NCBI GenBank assembly: GCA_023700245.1
Contig: JAJPRE010000006.1
Span: forward strand, 1 to 64,000
Length of the DNA: 64,000 nucleotides
From: Candidatus Thalassarchaeaceae archaeon
GTDB taxonomy: Archaea > Thermoplasmatota > Poseidoniia > Poseidoniales > Thalassarchaeaceae
Direction of reading: 5' to 3'
Below the pieces are notes generated by a model, which did no database searches, had not been told where the DNA came from, and saw only the letters and a program-made list of their open reading frames with translations. Made by a program: the position numbers and the translations under genes. This document shows, piece by piece, positions 39,521 through 46,282 of the stretch; the first letter of the stretch is position 1; each line of letters starts with the position of its first letter.

Positions 39521-40342
39521 ATGAATAGTGCGATTTTGTCCTCAAAAAGAGTAATTGTTTTGGGAGCATTATTGATGTTTATGGCAGGGACTAGTCAAGC
39601 AATTCATAGTGGTGTTGGAGGAGATGCAAATAATCAAGGTGATGTTGCGATTGCTGGATGTACTTGTCACGCATCTGAACCAGATAATTCTGTAACGGTA
39701 ATACTTGATTCAGTACCATATCATTATTCATATGGCGCAAGCTATAACATGGAAATTCAACTCATAGGAGGCCCAGAAATACTAGTTGGAGGCCAATCAG
39801 GAGGATTCGCCCTAAGAGTCAGTAGAGGGACCCTAGGGCCAGGAATAGGATATGAAAATTTAGTGCAAAATTGGGAAAATGACCTATCGGCACTTACCCA
39901 TACTTCGGCAGGATCTAAAGTTGAAGATAGGGCATGGCACATAATTTGGAATTCACCGGACACAATGGAAAACGATACAACGGTTACTTTTTGGTTAGCA
40001 GGAAACTCAGTGAATGGAGATAAAATCCCGTCATCACTAGACAGGTGGAATAGATTAAGTGTGACTCTCGAAGAAGGAGAAGATAATGGAAAAACTAGAA
40101 CCGTATTTTCTGGCAATGGGGACATTAATCCCCCTGCCCCTGTGACTGATGAAATTGATTTGCACCACATGGGTGCAAAATTAAGAGCGCATTGGCTAGG
40201 ATTGCTAGGATTTGGAGCAGTGATATTAGTAATTGTATTTTGTGGTTTGTTTTTAAGATATGGATTTTCAAGACATTATGTTGGACGTAGTAATTTACTC
40301 AAATTGAGAATAAAACATCTTAGAAGGGGTGATCAACTTTGA
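39521..40342 (+). CDS. Exported, C-terminally TM-anchored protein with CTCH motif
   Basis: Signal peptide; HSGVGGDANNQGDVAIAGCTCHASEPDNSV; C-terminal TM; overlaps next ORF. Confidence 0.65.
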   Translation: MNSAILSSKRVIVLGALLMFMAGTSQAIHSGVGGDANNQGDVAIAGCTCHASEPDNSVTVILDSVPYHYSYGASYNMEIQLIGGPEILVGGQSGGFALRVSRGTLGPGIGYENLVQNWENDLSALTHTSAGSKVEDRAWHIIWNSPDTMENDTTVTFWLAGNSVNGDKIPSSLDRWNRLSVTLEEGEDNGKTRTVFSGNGDINPPAPVTDEIDLHHMGAKLRAHWLGLLGFGAVILVIVFCGLFLRYGFSRHYVGRSNLLKLRIKHLRRGDQL

Positions 40343-40788
40343 AAGATGATGTTGTCATGAGATTACTACGAGATGTTAGTCTCGGTAAGGTATCTGTTGA
40401 AGAGGCCAGAGAAGCACTAGAAGGCATTGATATTTCGGAAGAAAATTATGTAAAGGCTGTGGATCATGGAGTATTTAATATGCCGAAACCGGGAACCATA
40501 GTAAGGGCCAGCATATCTCCCTCTGGCGATTCTTGGTTGATCATCCTAGTAGGATTATGGGGCATAATCTGGACATTATTTTGGGCAGGTTCATTATCAT
40601 ATGGATTATACAATCATTGGAATCAACAAATGCTAGCATTTGATTTAGCAATGACCTTGTTGACCATCATAATTATGGGAATCGTGTACCTAAAATATGT
40701 TATGCCTGACGTAGTTGTTGTAAAGCACAGAAGAAACAAATACATAACAAGGAATGATCCTGAGGCTTGGAAAAAATACGAGGCATGA
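40339..40788 (+). CDS. Two-TM membrane protein of the cytochrome b operon
   Basis: 149 aa; overlaps both neighbours. Confidence 0.65.
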   Translation: MKDDVVMRLLRDVSLGKVSVEEAREALEGIDISEENYVKAVDHGVFNMPKPGTIVRASISPSGDSWLIILVGLWGIIWTLFWAGSLSYGLYNHWNQQMLAFDLAMTLLTIIIMGIVYLKYVMPDVVVVKHRRNKYITRNDPEAWKKYEA

Positions 40789-41636
40789 CCATGGCTAGAA
40801 GATTTAAATTACGTCCTTTACCTAATGACTCTAATGATAATAAAGAATCATTAAAGATGATAGATCGAAGAGAGTTTATGAGGCTTTCATTTAATACAGC
40901 CGCTGGACTAATCACTATGGCGAGTATCGGAAGTGTTGGATTCGCATCACTATTAATGGGGCAACCAGAGGCAGATGGAGGAGATACGGCAGTTAGGTTT
41001 TGGGTACCTTCAGGAGCAGAAGATACCGCTTGGTTTGGAGATCGCCATCTTGAGCCTATGAATTACAGCGCATTTCAAACTGCAGCGGCCAATACCAAAA
41101 CAGGAATGATAGGTGCTCAAGGAGTCTGGTCAGGATTACCTGTTAACGTAGTTTATGTGCCCCATGAGGAAAATAAAGACTTACCTCTAGTGCCCGATAA
41201 ACCAAGATTTCAGTACCTAGATGGTTATGATTTAGGAGGGAAATATGTTGGGTCGGGGAGAGAAGTAGAAGATGATTCGACTTATTCCACATTATCAATT
41301 CATGATAATATGATAATAATATTTTCAAGATGCCCTCACCTCTGTTGTATACCGGGATGGCAATTAGTAACTAATAATTATACAGGAGATAATTGGGCAT
41401 CAGGAGGAACAGATTCTGGAGGCGATAAATTATTTTGTATTTGCCATTCCAGTAGATTTGATCCAACGGCGATTGAGAAAAATAGTATGGGAAGAGGAGT
41501 TCCTTTTGATTTCATTGGAGTTAGGAGAACGGGTGGCCCTGCACCCAATGGAATGCCTTTAATCCCGTTTGTACTAAATGGAGATATTATTGAGGCATTA
41601 CCAGATTTTAAAGACTGGTATGCATATTGTGGTTGA
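40785..41636 (+). CDS. Rieske iron-sulfur protein
   Basis: CPHLCCIPGW...CICHSSRFDP; N-terminal RREFMRLSFNTAAGLITMASIG anchor; start within ORF 40767..41636. Confidence 0.9.
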   Translation: MTMARRFKLRPLPNDSNDNKESLKMIDRREFMRLSFNTAAGLITMASIGSVGFASLLMGQPEADGGDTAVRFWVPSGAEDTAWFGDRHLEPMNYSAFQTAAANTKTGMIGAQGVWSGLPVNVVYVPHEENKDLPLVPDKPRFQYLDGYDLGGKYVGSGREVEDDSTYSTLSIHDNMIIIFSRCPHLCCIPGWQLVTNNYTGDNWASGGTDSGGDKLFCICHSSRFDPTAIEKNSMGRGVPFDFIGVRRTGGPAPNGMPLIPFVLNGDIIEALPDFKDWYAYCG

Positions 41637-41647
41637 GGTAGATAAAT

Positions 41648-42514
41648 ATGATTCAATTTTGGTTCTTATGGCTTTTTATTGCAATAGTAGTTGTCATCGT
41701 AGCATTTACCTTACGAAAGGAAAGGGATGATATGCCTAGAAAGGATATTTTAAGGGCAGTGGAAAGTAATGCAAGTAATATGGGTTTAGCAGAAAAATTA
41801 TTTTTATGGGCTTTTTCATGGTTAGATACTAGATTTAGAATACAAGATTATTGGGGAATGAGCAGAGATGCATTCCATAGCGTTCACAGGCAGATGCCCC
41901 TTACTCATGCTGAAAAATATAAATTGAGAATTATTTGGTATTGGTACCCACTTTATTGTTTAGGCGGTATTTCGTTTTTAGCGTTTATAATATTGGTAAT
42001 TACTGGAACTATACTTGGCCTTTATTATGTGCCAGGAGGAGAGGGAGATCCGACTCCTGCATACAGCAGCCTTGAATTTATTATGACTACATTGCCATTC
42101 GGATATATAATAAGGTCAATACACCATTGGACAACTCATTTTATGGTTGCAGCAGTATTCTTACACATGTGTAGAGTTTACTTTACTGGGGCATATAGGA
42201 ATCCTAGAGAATTAAATTGGTTAATAGGAGTTGCATTAATGTTTTTCACAATATTCTTTGGATATTCTGGATATCTACTCCCATGGGATAGTTTGGCATT
42301 TGGAGCTGCTACGATTGGAATAAATATGGCAACATCAACTCCTTTAATTGGAGAATGGATGGCGAACATACTTTTCGCGGGATCTACATTATCTGGACAA
42401 ACTGTAACTAGAATGTACTTTTTACATGTCTTCATATTACCAGTCCTAGTGACCGCTTTAATATTAGTTCATTTATTCATAGTTTGGGTTCAAGGGATTG
42501 CTGAACCGCATTAA
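41648..42514 (+). CDS. Cytochrome b6-like N-terminal subunit
   Basis: RSIHHWTTHFMVAAVFLHMCRVYFTGAYRNPRELNWLIG; GYSGYLLPWD. Confidence 0.92.
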   Translation: MIQFWFLWLFIAIVVVIVAFTLRKERDDMPRKDILRAVESNASNMGLAEKLFLWAFSWLDTRFRIQDYWGMSRDAFHSVHRQMPLTHAEKYKLRIIWYWYPLYCLGGISFLAFIILVITGTILGLYYVPGGEGDPTPAYSSLEFIMTTLPFGYIIRSIHHWTTHFMVAAVFLHMCRVYFTGAYRNPRELNWLIGVALMFFTIFFGYSGYLLPWDSLAFGAATIGINMATSTPLIGEWMANILFAGSTLSGQTVTRMYFLHVFILPVLVTALILVHLFIVWVQGIAEPH

Positions 42515-42525
42515 GAGGTATTTAA

Positions 42526-45309
42526 ATGGGATTAATAGATAGATTTGGAAGGATTGCTGATACATATGTCAGCGAAAGGGATCATTTAATTGAAGCAGAG
42601 CAAGAACGAAGAAGAGTTTTTGTCGGTCACTCGTTTTGGCCTACAGAAGTATTAAGAGATACAATAATCCTAGCTAGTATGGTCATGGTAATATGTTTCT
42701 ACTCATGGATTGTGCCCCCTCCACTGCATAGTGCTGCAGATCCATTTGCTCAAGCAGGATTCGTATTTCCGGATTGGTATGTATTATTCTCTTACGGATA
42801 CCTAAGATGGGGCGAATACCTGCCTCAGTACACAATTCCAGCAGGCCCTATTGGTGATTTCTTTGGTCAGCCATTTATTTATTGGAATGCAGCATGGTGG
42901 GGTGCGGCGATAACCGGCATCCCAGTAGGAATATTGGCCCTGCCTCCATTCATAATAGGTAAAAGAGAAAAAAGAGGCGTTGAAGATCCTTGGTTTGCAA
43001 GTGCAGGGGCCGCTTATTTAGCACATGTCTGGTTTATTTCCGTATTCTCCATAAATATATTCTTAGAATTATATGCAAAAGATTTGACCAATTATTGCTT
43101 CAAAGATTCTCACGATTATTTCTTCTGCGGCCGACAGGCTCCTTGGACTGCTACGATATTTAATGCCATTCCTTGGATATTATCAGCCTTTTTCTTAGGT
43201 GTAATTTTATATTTCGGCATAAGAAAATTTTTGTTAAATACGATGGGTGCCAGAGTAACTCCGTCTCTCGGAAAACAAGTAACGATAGGCACCATAATTA
43301 TTACAGTACTTATCTCAACTGTAACTTGGCCGATATATGAAGGCGGATTTTGGAATTATGGAGGATTAGGTGCAATGGATGATATCTCGCAATTAGATGA
43401 AATGAGAGAACAGCCGCAGGATACATTAGTTCATTATGGTAAAGGAAATGTCTGGGAAACGTGGGAAGAAGAATGTTTATCACATGAAGAAAGTTTCGGA
43501 TTAGGAGTCTGGGAAAGCATAAATCAAGAAGATTATGAAGAGTGGTGTGTGATACCTGCATCTAATTGGATAGACTGGTCTATCTATCAACCAACAAAGT
43601 TTACTTTAATTGATTATTCTGGCGTTAATGGACATGCAGATTATGAAACTGGACAAAATCAAGCATTTTCAGGAATGACATATACTGGAAATTCAGATGA
43701 AACAGAAGTAAGTATTTCATCTTTCGAATCTTTTACAGTAGAAGATTTTGGCGTGAGTGAATTACCCACGGATATAGGATGCAATTTTAGAACAAGTACA
43801 TACGGAGCAGGAAATCATCAACAGACAGTATATTTAACTAATTCAATTAAAGAAGAAGTTTGGAGGATGGAAGGAGAAACTTGTTCACTAGAAACAATTT
43901 ATCTTAATTCAGGAGAAACATACACAATCTATTTTGAAACAACCTCGAATTCTATCAATGAATCAATTACAATGATTACAGATTTTTCGGCTACGGCTTA
44001 TCAGCCATTATTATTGACAGAGGATGGGACTGCCCTAATCAGATCGTCCAGTATTTTAACATTAGATGAGATGAAAGAACTATCGATAGAGAATCCAACT
44101 TACCATAAGAATCCGAAGAGCCTGGATGCCAAATTAATATACTCATTATTCATACCTTGCTTAGGAGTAGGTGCAATGGTGTTTATGTTAATGAGAAGTA
44201 TGGCACGAGGATATGAATGGGAAATGAACAAATGTTATGGCTGTGACCTTTGCGATGATGCATGTCCGGTAAGGTTGTTTAATGCAGGAGATAAATTAAA
44301 TATAATTTATAATACATGGAATAATGAAGATGATGGAGTTCCCCTATATTCTTGTTTGACTTGTAGTGCATGTACAAATGCCTGCCCTCAATTAGTAGAT
44401 TATGATTCATATGTAGACATTCGAAGAAATTTGATTGTAGGCGGCCCTCCTGCAGCCGAGATACCGCATACAGTACTGCAAGCAGTACTGGCTGCTGAGG
44501 CCGATGAGGATGAGTCGTTTATCCCTACAGCTGATTATCCAATAGATTCCAACATTGGCTATTATCCAGGATGCGTGGACTACATAGATCAAGAAATGGT
44601 ATTTAGCCATGTAAATGAAGGCACTATGAACCTTGGAGAAACAACTACTGCAGCATTCACACTATTCGAAGAGTTGGGGCAAGATGTTACTTATTTAGGA
44701 AGAGATTTCTTAAAATGTTGTGGCCACGACCAAAAGTGGCAAGGATTATCTGAAGTATTTGAAAAACTAAAGGGATATAATCAAAAGAAAATTGGAGAAA
44801 GTGGAATTGATACATTAGTAACATCATGTGCTGAATGTTTCAGAACCTTCGCATTAGATTATGAATTAGAAGACATGAAGGTTATGCATACAACAGAATT
44901 CTTGACTGAAAATGGATTTGATATGGAATTAAAAACAGAGGATGACATAACAGTAACTTACCATGACCCTTGCAGAATTGGTAGACAAATGAATTTGTAT
45001 GATGAACCAAGAAATTTAGTAGAATCAATTGAAGGGGTGTCTTTAGTAGAGATGGAACATAATAAAGAAGACGGATTATGCTGTGGCGTTTCTAGTATGA
45101 TGTCATGCAATGAAAACAGTAGAGGGTTACGACTTCAAAGATTTGATGAAGTTAAAGCCACAGGCGCGGATATCATGCTAACAACATGCCCAAAATGTGT
45201 AAGTCACTTTGAATGTTTAAAATTTGAAGGAGATCCGAGACATGATTTTGAAATATTAGACGTAGTCAGTTTCTTAGCAAGGCAAGTAAATGCAAAAAAT
45301 AAAGTTTAA
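42526..45309 (+). CDS. Cytochrome b C-terminal domain + exported insert + 2x[4Fe-4S] + two HdrD-type CCG domains, one chain
   Basis: FPDWYVLFSYGYLRWG; CYGCDLCDDACP, CLTCSACTNACP; YPGC...KCCGHD...SCAECF and DPCRIG...LCCGVS...TCPKC. Confidence 0.88.
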   Translation: MGLIDRFGRIADTYVSERDHLIEAEQERRRVFVGHSFWPTEVLRDTIILASMVMVICFYSWIVPPPLHSAADPFAQAGFVFPDWYVLFSYGYLRWGEYLPQYTIPAGPIGDFFGQPFIYWNAAWWGAAITGIPVGILALPPFIIGKREKRGVEDPWFASAGAAYLAHVWFISVFSINIFLELYAKDLTNYCFKDSHDYFFCGRQAPWTATIFNAIPWILSAFFLGVILYFGIRKFLLNTMGARVTPSLGKQVTIGTIIITVLISTVTWPIYEGGFWNYGGLGAMDDISQLDEMREQPQDTLVHYGKGNVWETWEEECLSHEESFGLGVWESINQEDYEEWCVIPASNWIDWSIYQPTKFTLIDYSGVNGHADYETGQNQAFSGMTYTGNSDETEVSISSFESFTVEDFGVSELPTDIGCNFRTSTYGAGNHQQTVYLTNSIKEEVWRMEGETCSLETIYLNSGETYTIYFETTSNSINESITMITDFSATAYQPLLLTEDGTALIRSSSILTLDEMKELSIENPTYHKNPKSLDAKLIYSLFIPCLGVGAMVFMLMRSMARGYEWEMNKCYGCDLCDDACPVRLFNAGDKLNIIYNTWNNEDDGVPLYSCLTCSACTNACPQLVDYDSYVDIRRNLIVGGPPAAEIPHTVLQAVLAAEADEDESFIPTADYPIDSNIGYYPGCVDYIDQEMVFSHVNEGTMNLGETTTAAFTLFEELGQDVTYLGRDFLKCCGHDQKWQGLSEVFEKLKGYNQKKIGESGIDTLVTSCAECFRTFALDYELEDMKVMHTTEFLTENGFDMELKTEDDITVTYHDPCRIGRQMNLYDEPRNLVESIEGVSLVEMEHNKEDGLCCGVSSMMSCNENSRGLRLQRFDEVKATGADIMLTTCPKCVSHFECLKFEGDPRHDFEILDVVSFLARQVNAKNKV

Positions 45310-45648: not shown

Positions 45649-45981
45649 GTGACGAAGCAAGATGACTTAGCCTTGAGGAGAGTTTCTCAGCAAAGAAGAA
45701 TTAGGATGATGATGAATGCTGTCAAATCTGAAGAAAGAGCGAAACTCAAAGGAGGCCCTGAAGCAGTAGCATGGGTAAAAGAAGATTTATGTATTGGTTG
45801 TGACCAATGCACAATTGTATGTGATGACGATGCAATAGAAATATATCATACTCCATTAAAAAGTCCAATAATGAATGTAGATAATAATAAAAAAGCAAAG
45901 GTCTTGAGAGACCCTTGTACTGGATGTAAGTTATGCGTCTTGGCGTGTCCAACTGACGCAATAGTAATGATAGATAGGTGA
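45649..45981 (+). CDS. 2x[4Fe-4S] ferredoxin-like protein
   Basis: CIGCDQCTIVCDDDAI...CTGCKLCVLACPTDAI; GTG start. Confidence 0.88.
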   Translation: MTKQDDLALRRVSQQRRIRMMMNAVKSEERAKLKGGPEAVAWVKEDLCIGCDQCTIVCDDDAIEIYHTPLKSPIMNVDNNKKAKVLRDPCTGCKLCVLACPTDAIVMIDR

Positions 45982-45988
45982 AAAAATT

Positions 45989-46282
45989 ATGAGTGAAAAG
46001 GATCCATTGAGATTTGGAGCTGAATTTGGCCCAAAAGGCGTAACTAACCCAAGTGGTGTATCATTATCGACATTTAAGACATTAGTATGGGTATCAAATC
46101 TCGGCGGATTAATATTATTTGCAATAGGATTAGAATTAATGGTAGTTCAACAATTATTTGGATTTGGATTATTATGCCTAATTGCAGGCGTAATCATAGC
46201 ATTGTTTCCATCTAATTATGAAATTACAGGAATGGAGGAGTTATCTGATTCCTTTATTATGAATAACCAAGATGAGGAGTAA
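45989..46282 (+). CDS. Small two-TM membrane protein
   Basis: 97 aa, follows the ferredoxin gene by 8 nt. Confidence 0.6.
   Translation: MSEKDPLRFGAEFGPKGVTNPSGVSLSTFKTLVWVSNLGGLILFAIGLELMVVQQLFGFGLLCLIAGVIIALFPSNYEITGMEELSDSFIMNNQDEE

Follow-up and report, generated by a model that had tools for sequence, protein, structure and literature searches.

In the surface ocean, marine group II is one of the most abundant groups of archaea. A long-debated idea about the b6f complex is that its n-side heme ci accepts electrons from ferredoxin. Surveys of marine group II have reported an incomplete complex III, consisting of a cytochrome b and a Rieske protein with no canonical bc1 complex, along with an orphan "RnfB" (PMC6336850). 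Among proteins with CCG domains, EtfD has been described as a wire that carries electrons from ETF to menaquinone, and it is a precedent for such a wire without the bridging cysteine of the first CCG domain (PMC13083937). Here, we describe a protein from Poseidoniales (marine group II) in which a part of cytochrome b and an HdrD-type module lie in one chain. This fusion would be the missing half of the marine group II complex III, with an unexpected cytoplasmic electron wire. A search of the open literature turned up no account of a cytochrome b-HdrD fusion.

The fusion gene and its operon

The window, that is, the whole stretch of 64,000 nucleotides analysed here, comes from a Candidatus Thalassarchaeaceae archaeon and contains the fusion gene in the following setting:

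39521..40342, + strand, choice-of-anchor-V protein with a GCxCH motif and a C-terminal membrane helix (NF041895, 7.3e-21; motif conserved)
40339..40788, + strand, small membrane protein (distant DUF7318 match, 4.3e-5, below cut-off; conserved in the operon in both orders)
40785..41636, + strand, Rieske iron-sulfur protein with both ligand motifs (CPHLCC...CICHSSRFD) and an N terminus of the twin-arginine type (TIGR01416, 2.3e-8, under the cut-off of this model)
41648..42514, + strand, cytochrome b6, the N-terminal cytochrome b (PF00033, 1e-41; PDB cytochrome b6, 3.7e-42)
42526..45309, + strand, fusion protein of 927 aa (cytochrome b subunit IV, ectodomain insert, and an HdrC-like plus HdrB-like, i.e., HdrD-type, module)
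45649..45981, + strand, 2x[4Fe-4S] ferredoxin of 110 aa (near the fusion in nearly every genome checked)
45989..46282, + strand, small membrane protein (no family match; likely counterpart of the membrane protein that ends the marine group III operon)

The initial annotation had proposed that the C-terminal half of cytochrome b and an HdrD-like CCG module form a single 927-aa chain tied to the adjacently encoded bc-type core, and this proposal stands. The frame begins with ATG and has no internal stops. From the N to the C terminus, three helices of subunit IV are followed by an insert, the last helix, a double [4Fe-4S] domain, and two CCG domains:

42640..43077, + strand, subunit-IV helices E, F, and G (residues 39-184; hydropathy; family profiles match bc1 cytochrome b, and PF00032 is found in homologous fusions)
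42769..42780, + strand, Qo-site motif PDWY (residues 82-85; invariant in 17 aligned Poseidoniales and retained in marine group III)
43078..44115, + strand, insert between helices G and H (residues 185-530; membrane hairpin plus extracytoplasmic domain)
43633..44100, + strand, beta-sandwich ectodomain (approximately residues 370-525; the confident part of the AF2 model, with a weak Foldseek fold match to GOLD domains)
44122..44208, + strand, last membrane helix, H (residues 533-561), then a GYExxMN tail and the junction with the Fe-S module
44227..44391, + strand, HdrC-like domain with two cubane [4Fe-4S] motifs (residues 568-622; Pfam Fer4_8/Fer4_9; PDB HdrC chains)
44557..44859, + strand, first CCG domain, D1 (C683, C731, C732, C768, C771; Pfam CCG and motif)
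44953..45210, + strand, second CCG domain, D2 (C816, C852, C853, C888, C891; Pfam CCG and motif)

A trivial explanation for such a chain would be an assembly or gene-calling artefact that merged two unrelated genes. The chance of this is negligible: an equivalent ORF of 921-988 aa is intact in 36 of 40 related genomes, which cover 17 genera and both Poseidoniales families, and this recurrence leads us to reject a chimeric assembly. Moreover, full fusions exist separately in other families, and the junction has a constant position in the tail of subunit IV. The four exceptions are due to contig breaks (G004, G021, and G022) and to one frameshift (G017); nothing was found in favour of an artefact, this sole frameshift lying inside the ectodomain (L143:657-3436), where it may be real or a sequencing error.

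The membrane half of the window protein itself obtains no Pfam name, and its match to b6f subunit IV is weak (E ~0.12). Its relation to cytochrome b, as claimed initially, is established through its relatives, since related fusions score for PF00032 or for bc1 cytochrome b. Thus, PF00032 (Cytochrom_B_C) is matched in the homologous fusions L085 (39.3 bits) and L084 (22.5 bits; cut-off, 20.7), and in the fusions of G102 and G094, Cytochrom_B_C and CCG both exceed the Pfam cut-off in one chain. Against the PDB, the profile for the marine group III version matches bc1 cytochrome b (1e-6) and HdrC chains in one protein, and a profile of all forms matches EtfD (1.6e-74) and bc1 cytochrome b (1.7e-7). 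The FPDWY variant of the Qo motif was found where expected, at residues 81-85.

The plain subunit IV of other Thermoplasmatota terminates at GYExxLNxxYYxxR; in the fused forms, this tail is shared, and the chain extends from it into the first Fe-S motif. Because the plain forms stop at this tail, the junction corresponds to the natural cytoplasmic end of subunit IV. The six-helix topology is consistent with an Fe-S module on the n-side: counting the hydropathy-derived helices from a cytoplasmic N terminus would leave PDWY on the outer side of the membrane and the Fe-S module on the inner side.

The insert lies between helices G and H, as is seen by comparison with plain subunit IV. An insert had been recognized from the start, but its description as some 260 hydrophilic residues was too modest, as it comprises ~345 aa and holds two extra helices in addition to the extracytoplasmic domain. 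It is missing from the marine group III, f22, and f25 homologues. Apart from the ectodomain, AF2 modelled the full-length fusion poorly from 17 close homologues (pLDDT 53.7). A subunit IV from another Thermoplasmatota genome (L087:3994-5733), which has no Fe-S module, has extra helices and a large ectodomain of another kind, and the helix G-H loop therefore seems open to insertions.

The neighbouring cytochrome b6 aligns over residues 102-287 with its b6f counterpart and keeps both heme-ligand His-pair regions; the helix-B pair is visible across lineages. Its Cys104 aligns with Cys35 of b6f cytochrome b6, the residue that binds heme ci covalently. On the p-side, no recognizable gene for cytochrome c1 or f was found in the operon, and the only candidate for an extracytoplasmic electron partner is the choice-of-anchor-V protein. 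Since proteins of the cytochrome c assembly type are encoded in these genomes, this GCxCH protein could be an atypical c-type cytochrome that replaces cytochrome c1. GCxCH, with one residue between the cysteines as against the two of CxxCH, is conserved in the window protein (39521-40342), L038:3419-4114, L042:3948-4643, and L047:6392-7225.

The ferredoxin is the constant neighbour of the fusion, with no lactate or thiol enzyme in such a position. It lies 3' of the fusion in each of the 13 family-f1 loci examined and, among eight Poseidoniales genomes, within ~1.2 kb of it in seven and ~15 kb away in the eighth (G025); its best matches in marine group III are the polyferredoxins of the operon, except in G041. 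It is a candidate for the cytoplasmic partner. The ferredoxin scores 49.3 bits against the RnfB model TIGR01944, under the cut-off of 68.7, and is perhaps the published marine group II "RnfB". The small membrane protein that follows it resembles, by eye, L041:3149-3652.

Distribution of the fusion and the cysteines of its module

The full fusion occurs throughout Poseidoniales and in G094 and G102; in marine group III, which is the sister order, this operon keeps HdrB separate, such that a subunit IV-HdrC fusion is followed by an HdrB gene and then by a polyferredoxin gene. Among 392 Thermoplasmatota genomes searched, the best matches beyond the class came from G094 (a 789-aa fusion), G102 (a 606-aa fusion), and G107, a near relative of G102, the G094 and G102 proteins being full fusions without the ectodomain; other genomes of this set have stand-alone HdrD-like proteins. 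The HdrC-fused form is also present in L114 and L119, with a separate HdrB in L114. Ferredoxins are encoded 3' of the fusion gene in G094 and L114, and in G102 an HdrA-like gene takes this place. Among the genomes searched, with an all-genome scan that used two short patterns, the fusion is apparently restricted to some Thermoplasmatota. The simplest reading of this distribution would be that a bc complex acquired an HdrD module once.

The marine group III operon also lies on a contig labelled "Chloroflexi bacterium EAC10" (L108), probably owing to mis-binning. The ferredoxin of the operon has, in a single genome of marine group III, an N-terminal flavodoxin domain (L048:3946-4935; Flavodoxin_1, 6e-27), which points to a flavodoxin-linked partner.

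Within the module, the ferredoxin motifs noted initially are present as CYGCDLCDDACP at residues 570-581 and CLTCSACTNACP at residues 610-621, and Fer4_9 and Fer4_8 exceed the Pfam cut-off. Two complete CX(n)CCX(n)CxxC motifs were likewise found, C683/C731-C732/C768-C771 and C816/C852-C853/C888-C891, in two stretches matched by Pfam CCG (4.8e-22). In D2, the five cysteines are invariant among all aligned homologues. In D1, the full set is found in most Poseidoniales, G094, and G102; the cysteine that is bridging in HdrB is replaced by serine in the marine group III genera g20 and g21 and in the Poseidoniales L023/L024, and the last cysteine is lost in g19 and L114.

These cysteines bear on the possibility, raised in the initial annotation beside a lactate-like or other soluble donor, that the complex is a thiol:quinone oxidoreductase, in which the CCG clusters would act on a low-molecular-weight thiol/disulfide as HdrD acts on CoM-S-S-CoB. 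The complete HdrB-type sets of most Poseidoniales and the position of HdrD as the sister group speak for such an activity. We nevertheless consider it very unlikely: with serine in place of the bridging cysteine in several lineages, a disulfide reaction at two clusters is hardly a function that all of them share. The missing last cysteine of D1 (CAEG) was discarded as an argument against disulfide chemistry, as several stand-alone HdrD-like proteins lack it too.

An AF2 model of the C-terminal module (pLDDT 78.8) folds like EtfD, LutA, and HdrB, with EtfD as the top Foldseek match. EtfD is also the nearest solved homologue (4e-21), the match being limited to the soluble module. In a tree of modules, the details of which are unsure owing to long branches, a branch with 84/88 support sets the bc-linked modules apart; they lie beside stand-alone HdrD and away from EtfD-type proteins.

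The likeness to EtfD raises the question of whether the complex is an ETF:quinone oxidoreductase of fatty-acid-oxidizing archaea, with ETF donating electrons as it does to EtfD. ETF genes are encoded, and marine group II is predicted to degrade fatty acids (PMC6336850). This explanation is, however, improbable. In this genome, the ETF genes are on another contig, and a separate EtfD-type protein of 665 aa is encoded (L043:5646-7643); such a paralogue is the second match in most Poseidoniales genomes. The paralogues have CPHC and a serine at the bridging position, unlike the fusion, which has CAEC and groups with HdrD. A role confined to ETF is thus weakened by the separate paralogue. The L043 protein, on contig C41, combines a NarI-like membrane part with a CCG module and is itself likely to be the ETF:quinone oxidoreductase.

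Contig C6 of the same genome encodes a 729-aa protein (L044:3723-6772) in which two flavodoxin domains are joined to a succinate dehydrogenase iron-sulfur subunit; it adjoins an SdhE/HdrB-like CCG protein, indicating an unusual complex II.

Direction of electron flow

The explanation we favour is that of a bc-type complex hard-wired on its n-side to an HdrD-type wire that would feed electrons from a soluble carrier into the quinone pool; we give this explanation as a whole an even chance. It is supported by the conserved ORF, by the split-gene version in the sister order, and by the neighbouring ferredoxin. The donor would be a soluble low-potential carrier, most likely the ferredoxin of the operon or a flavodoxin, whose electrons would enter the CCG and cubane clusters of the fusion. 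Since the fusion has no NarI-type heme domain, the nearest n-side heme should be heme bH of cytochrome b6, which the electrons would reach probably via a covalent heme ci at Cys104. Quinone would then be reduced at the Qi site, and quinol re-oxidized at Qo by the Rieske protein, which would pass electrons to an extracytoplasmic acceptor and a terminal oxidase. A donor:quinone reductase and a bc complex would thereby form one unit. More generally, a direct exchange of electrons between this respiratory complex and soluble carriers, ferredoxin for example, is probable. The direction and the partner are inferred, direction being unreadable from sequence. The adjoining ferredoxin gene suggests a donor but is no proof of such a role, and the neighbour in G102 is HdrA-like.

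The cysteine for heme ci is found in seven of eight lineages with the module and in one of ten without it (Fisher p = 0.003). This association is no more than suggestive, because the cytochromes b6 that occur with the module mostly share ancestry and cluster together. Moreover, marine group III genus g20 has the module, yet has serine at the heme-ci position. A search of eight Poseidoniia genomes gave a two-oxoacid:ferredoxin oxidoreductase and no NADH-input domain of complex I, a combination that fits a ferredoxin-centred metabolism.

A serious rival to electron input is the reverse direction, for which the wiring would be identical. Quinol would be bifurcated at Qo, with the high-potential electron going to the Rieske protein and the low-potential electron going via heme bH to the HdrD module and on to a disulfide, ferredoxin, or flavodoxin; the oxygen-linked high-potential chain would drive the process. 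In most Poseidoniales, both CCG sites have the full five-cysteine catalytic motif of HdrB, bridging cysteine included, the module is nearer to HdrD than to EtfD-type proteins in the tree, and an HdrA-like gene lies beside the G102 fusion, all of which would suit an output. Such a transfer from the p-side to the n-side opposes the membrane potential, menaquinol-level donors are poor reductants of ferredoxin, and several lineages are without the bridging cysteine. We therefore regard output as possible but unlikely. Its more specific form, a quinone-based bifurcation into the cytoplasm in which heme bH/ci would reduce HdrD and then a soluble acceptor, so that an aerobe makes reductant through oxygen-driven quinol oxidation, is a rather unlikely prospect.

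HdrA-dependent bifurcation was rejected for Poseidoniales, as six of their genomes contained no HdrA, only short ferredoxin- or FAD-like pieces. Strong HdrA matches were found in G102, G107, and G040. G102 and G107 have 49 HdrA-type matches each, far above the other genomes searched, and in a marine group III genome, one stretch (L146; G040:C12:1-15000) encodes HdrA, ETF subunits, and a 2-oxoacid:ferredoxin oxidoreductase.

If the wiring functions as proposed, the bc complex would be a quinol oxidase plus an entry point (or an exit point) for soluble electrons, and it would be the hard-wired counterpart of the proposed transfer from ferredoxin to heme ci of the b6f complex.

Comparison with known systems

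With HdrABC, the fusion shares homologues of HdrC and HdrB; here, the module is joined to a membrane subunit. With HdrD, it shares the HdrC-HdrB order and the presence of two cubane and two CCG motifs in one chain, in keeping with their sister relation in the tree. The partners differ: HdrD works with the NarI-type cytochrome b HdrE, whereas the membrane part of the fusion is a cytochrome b subunit IV and its partners are a bc-type cytochrome b and a Rieske protein.

Mycobacterial EtfD (9ojn), like the fusion, combines a quinone-linked membrane part with two cubane and two CCG clusters in a single chain. EtfD has its own NarI-like heme domain, whereas the b hemes of the Poseidoniales complex would be in a separate subunit. 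In EtfD, the histidine of CPHC is a ligand in D2 and D1 has no bridging cysteine; the fusion has CAEC, usually with the bridging cysteine (C732). The complex is accordingly distinct from HdrDE, from EtfD, and, in Poseidoniales, from HdrABC. It could be pictured as an EtfD/HdrDE wire in which the NarI-type heme domain has been swapped for a bc core.

The resemblance to the Rieske/cytochrome b complexes (bc1 and b6f) lies in the cytochrome b6, PDWY, the Rieske gene, and the heme-ci cysteine, and the splitting of cytochrome b is shared with b6f (PetB plus PetD). The differences are the fusion of the n-side tail of subunit IV to an HdrD-type module, an operon without a recognizable c1 or f, and the large extracytoplasmic insert, which is a Poseidoniales feature. 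By the features tested, all of them read from sequence, the complex is a member of the Rieske/cytochrome b complexes.
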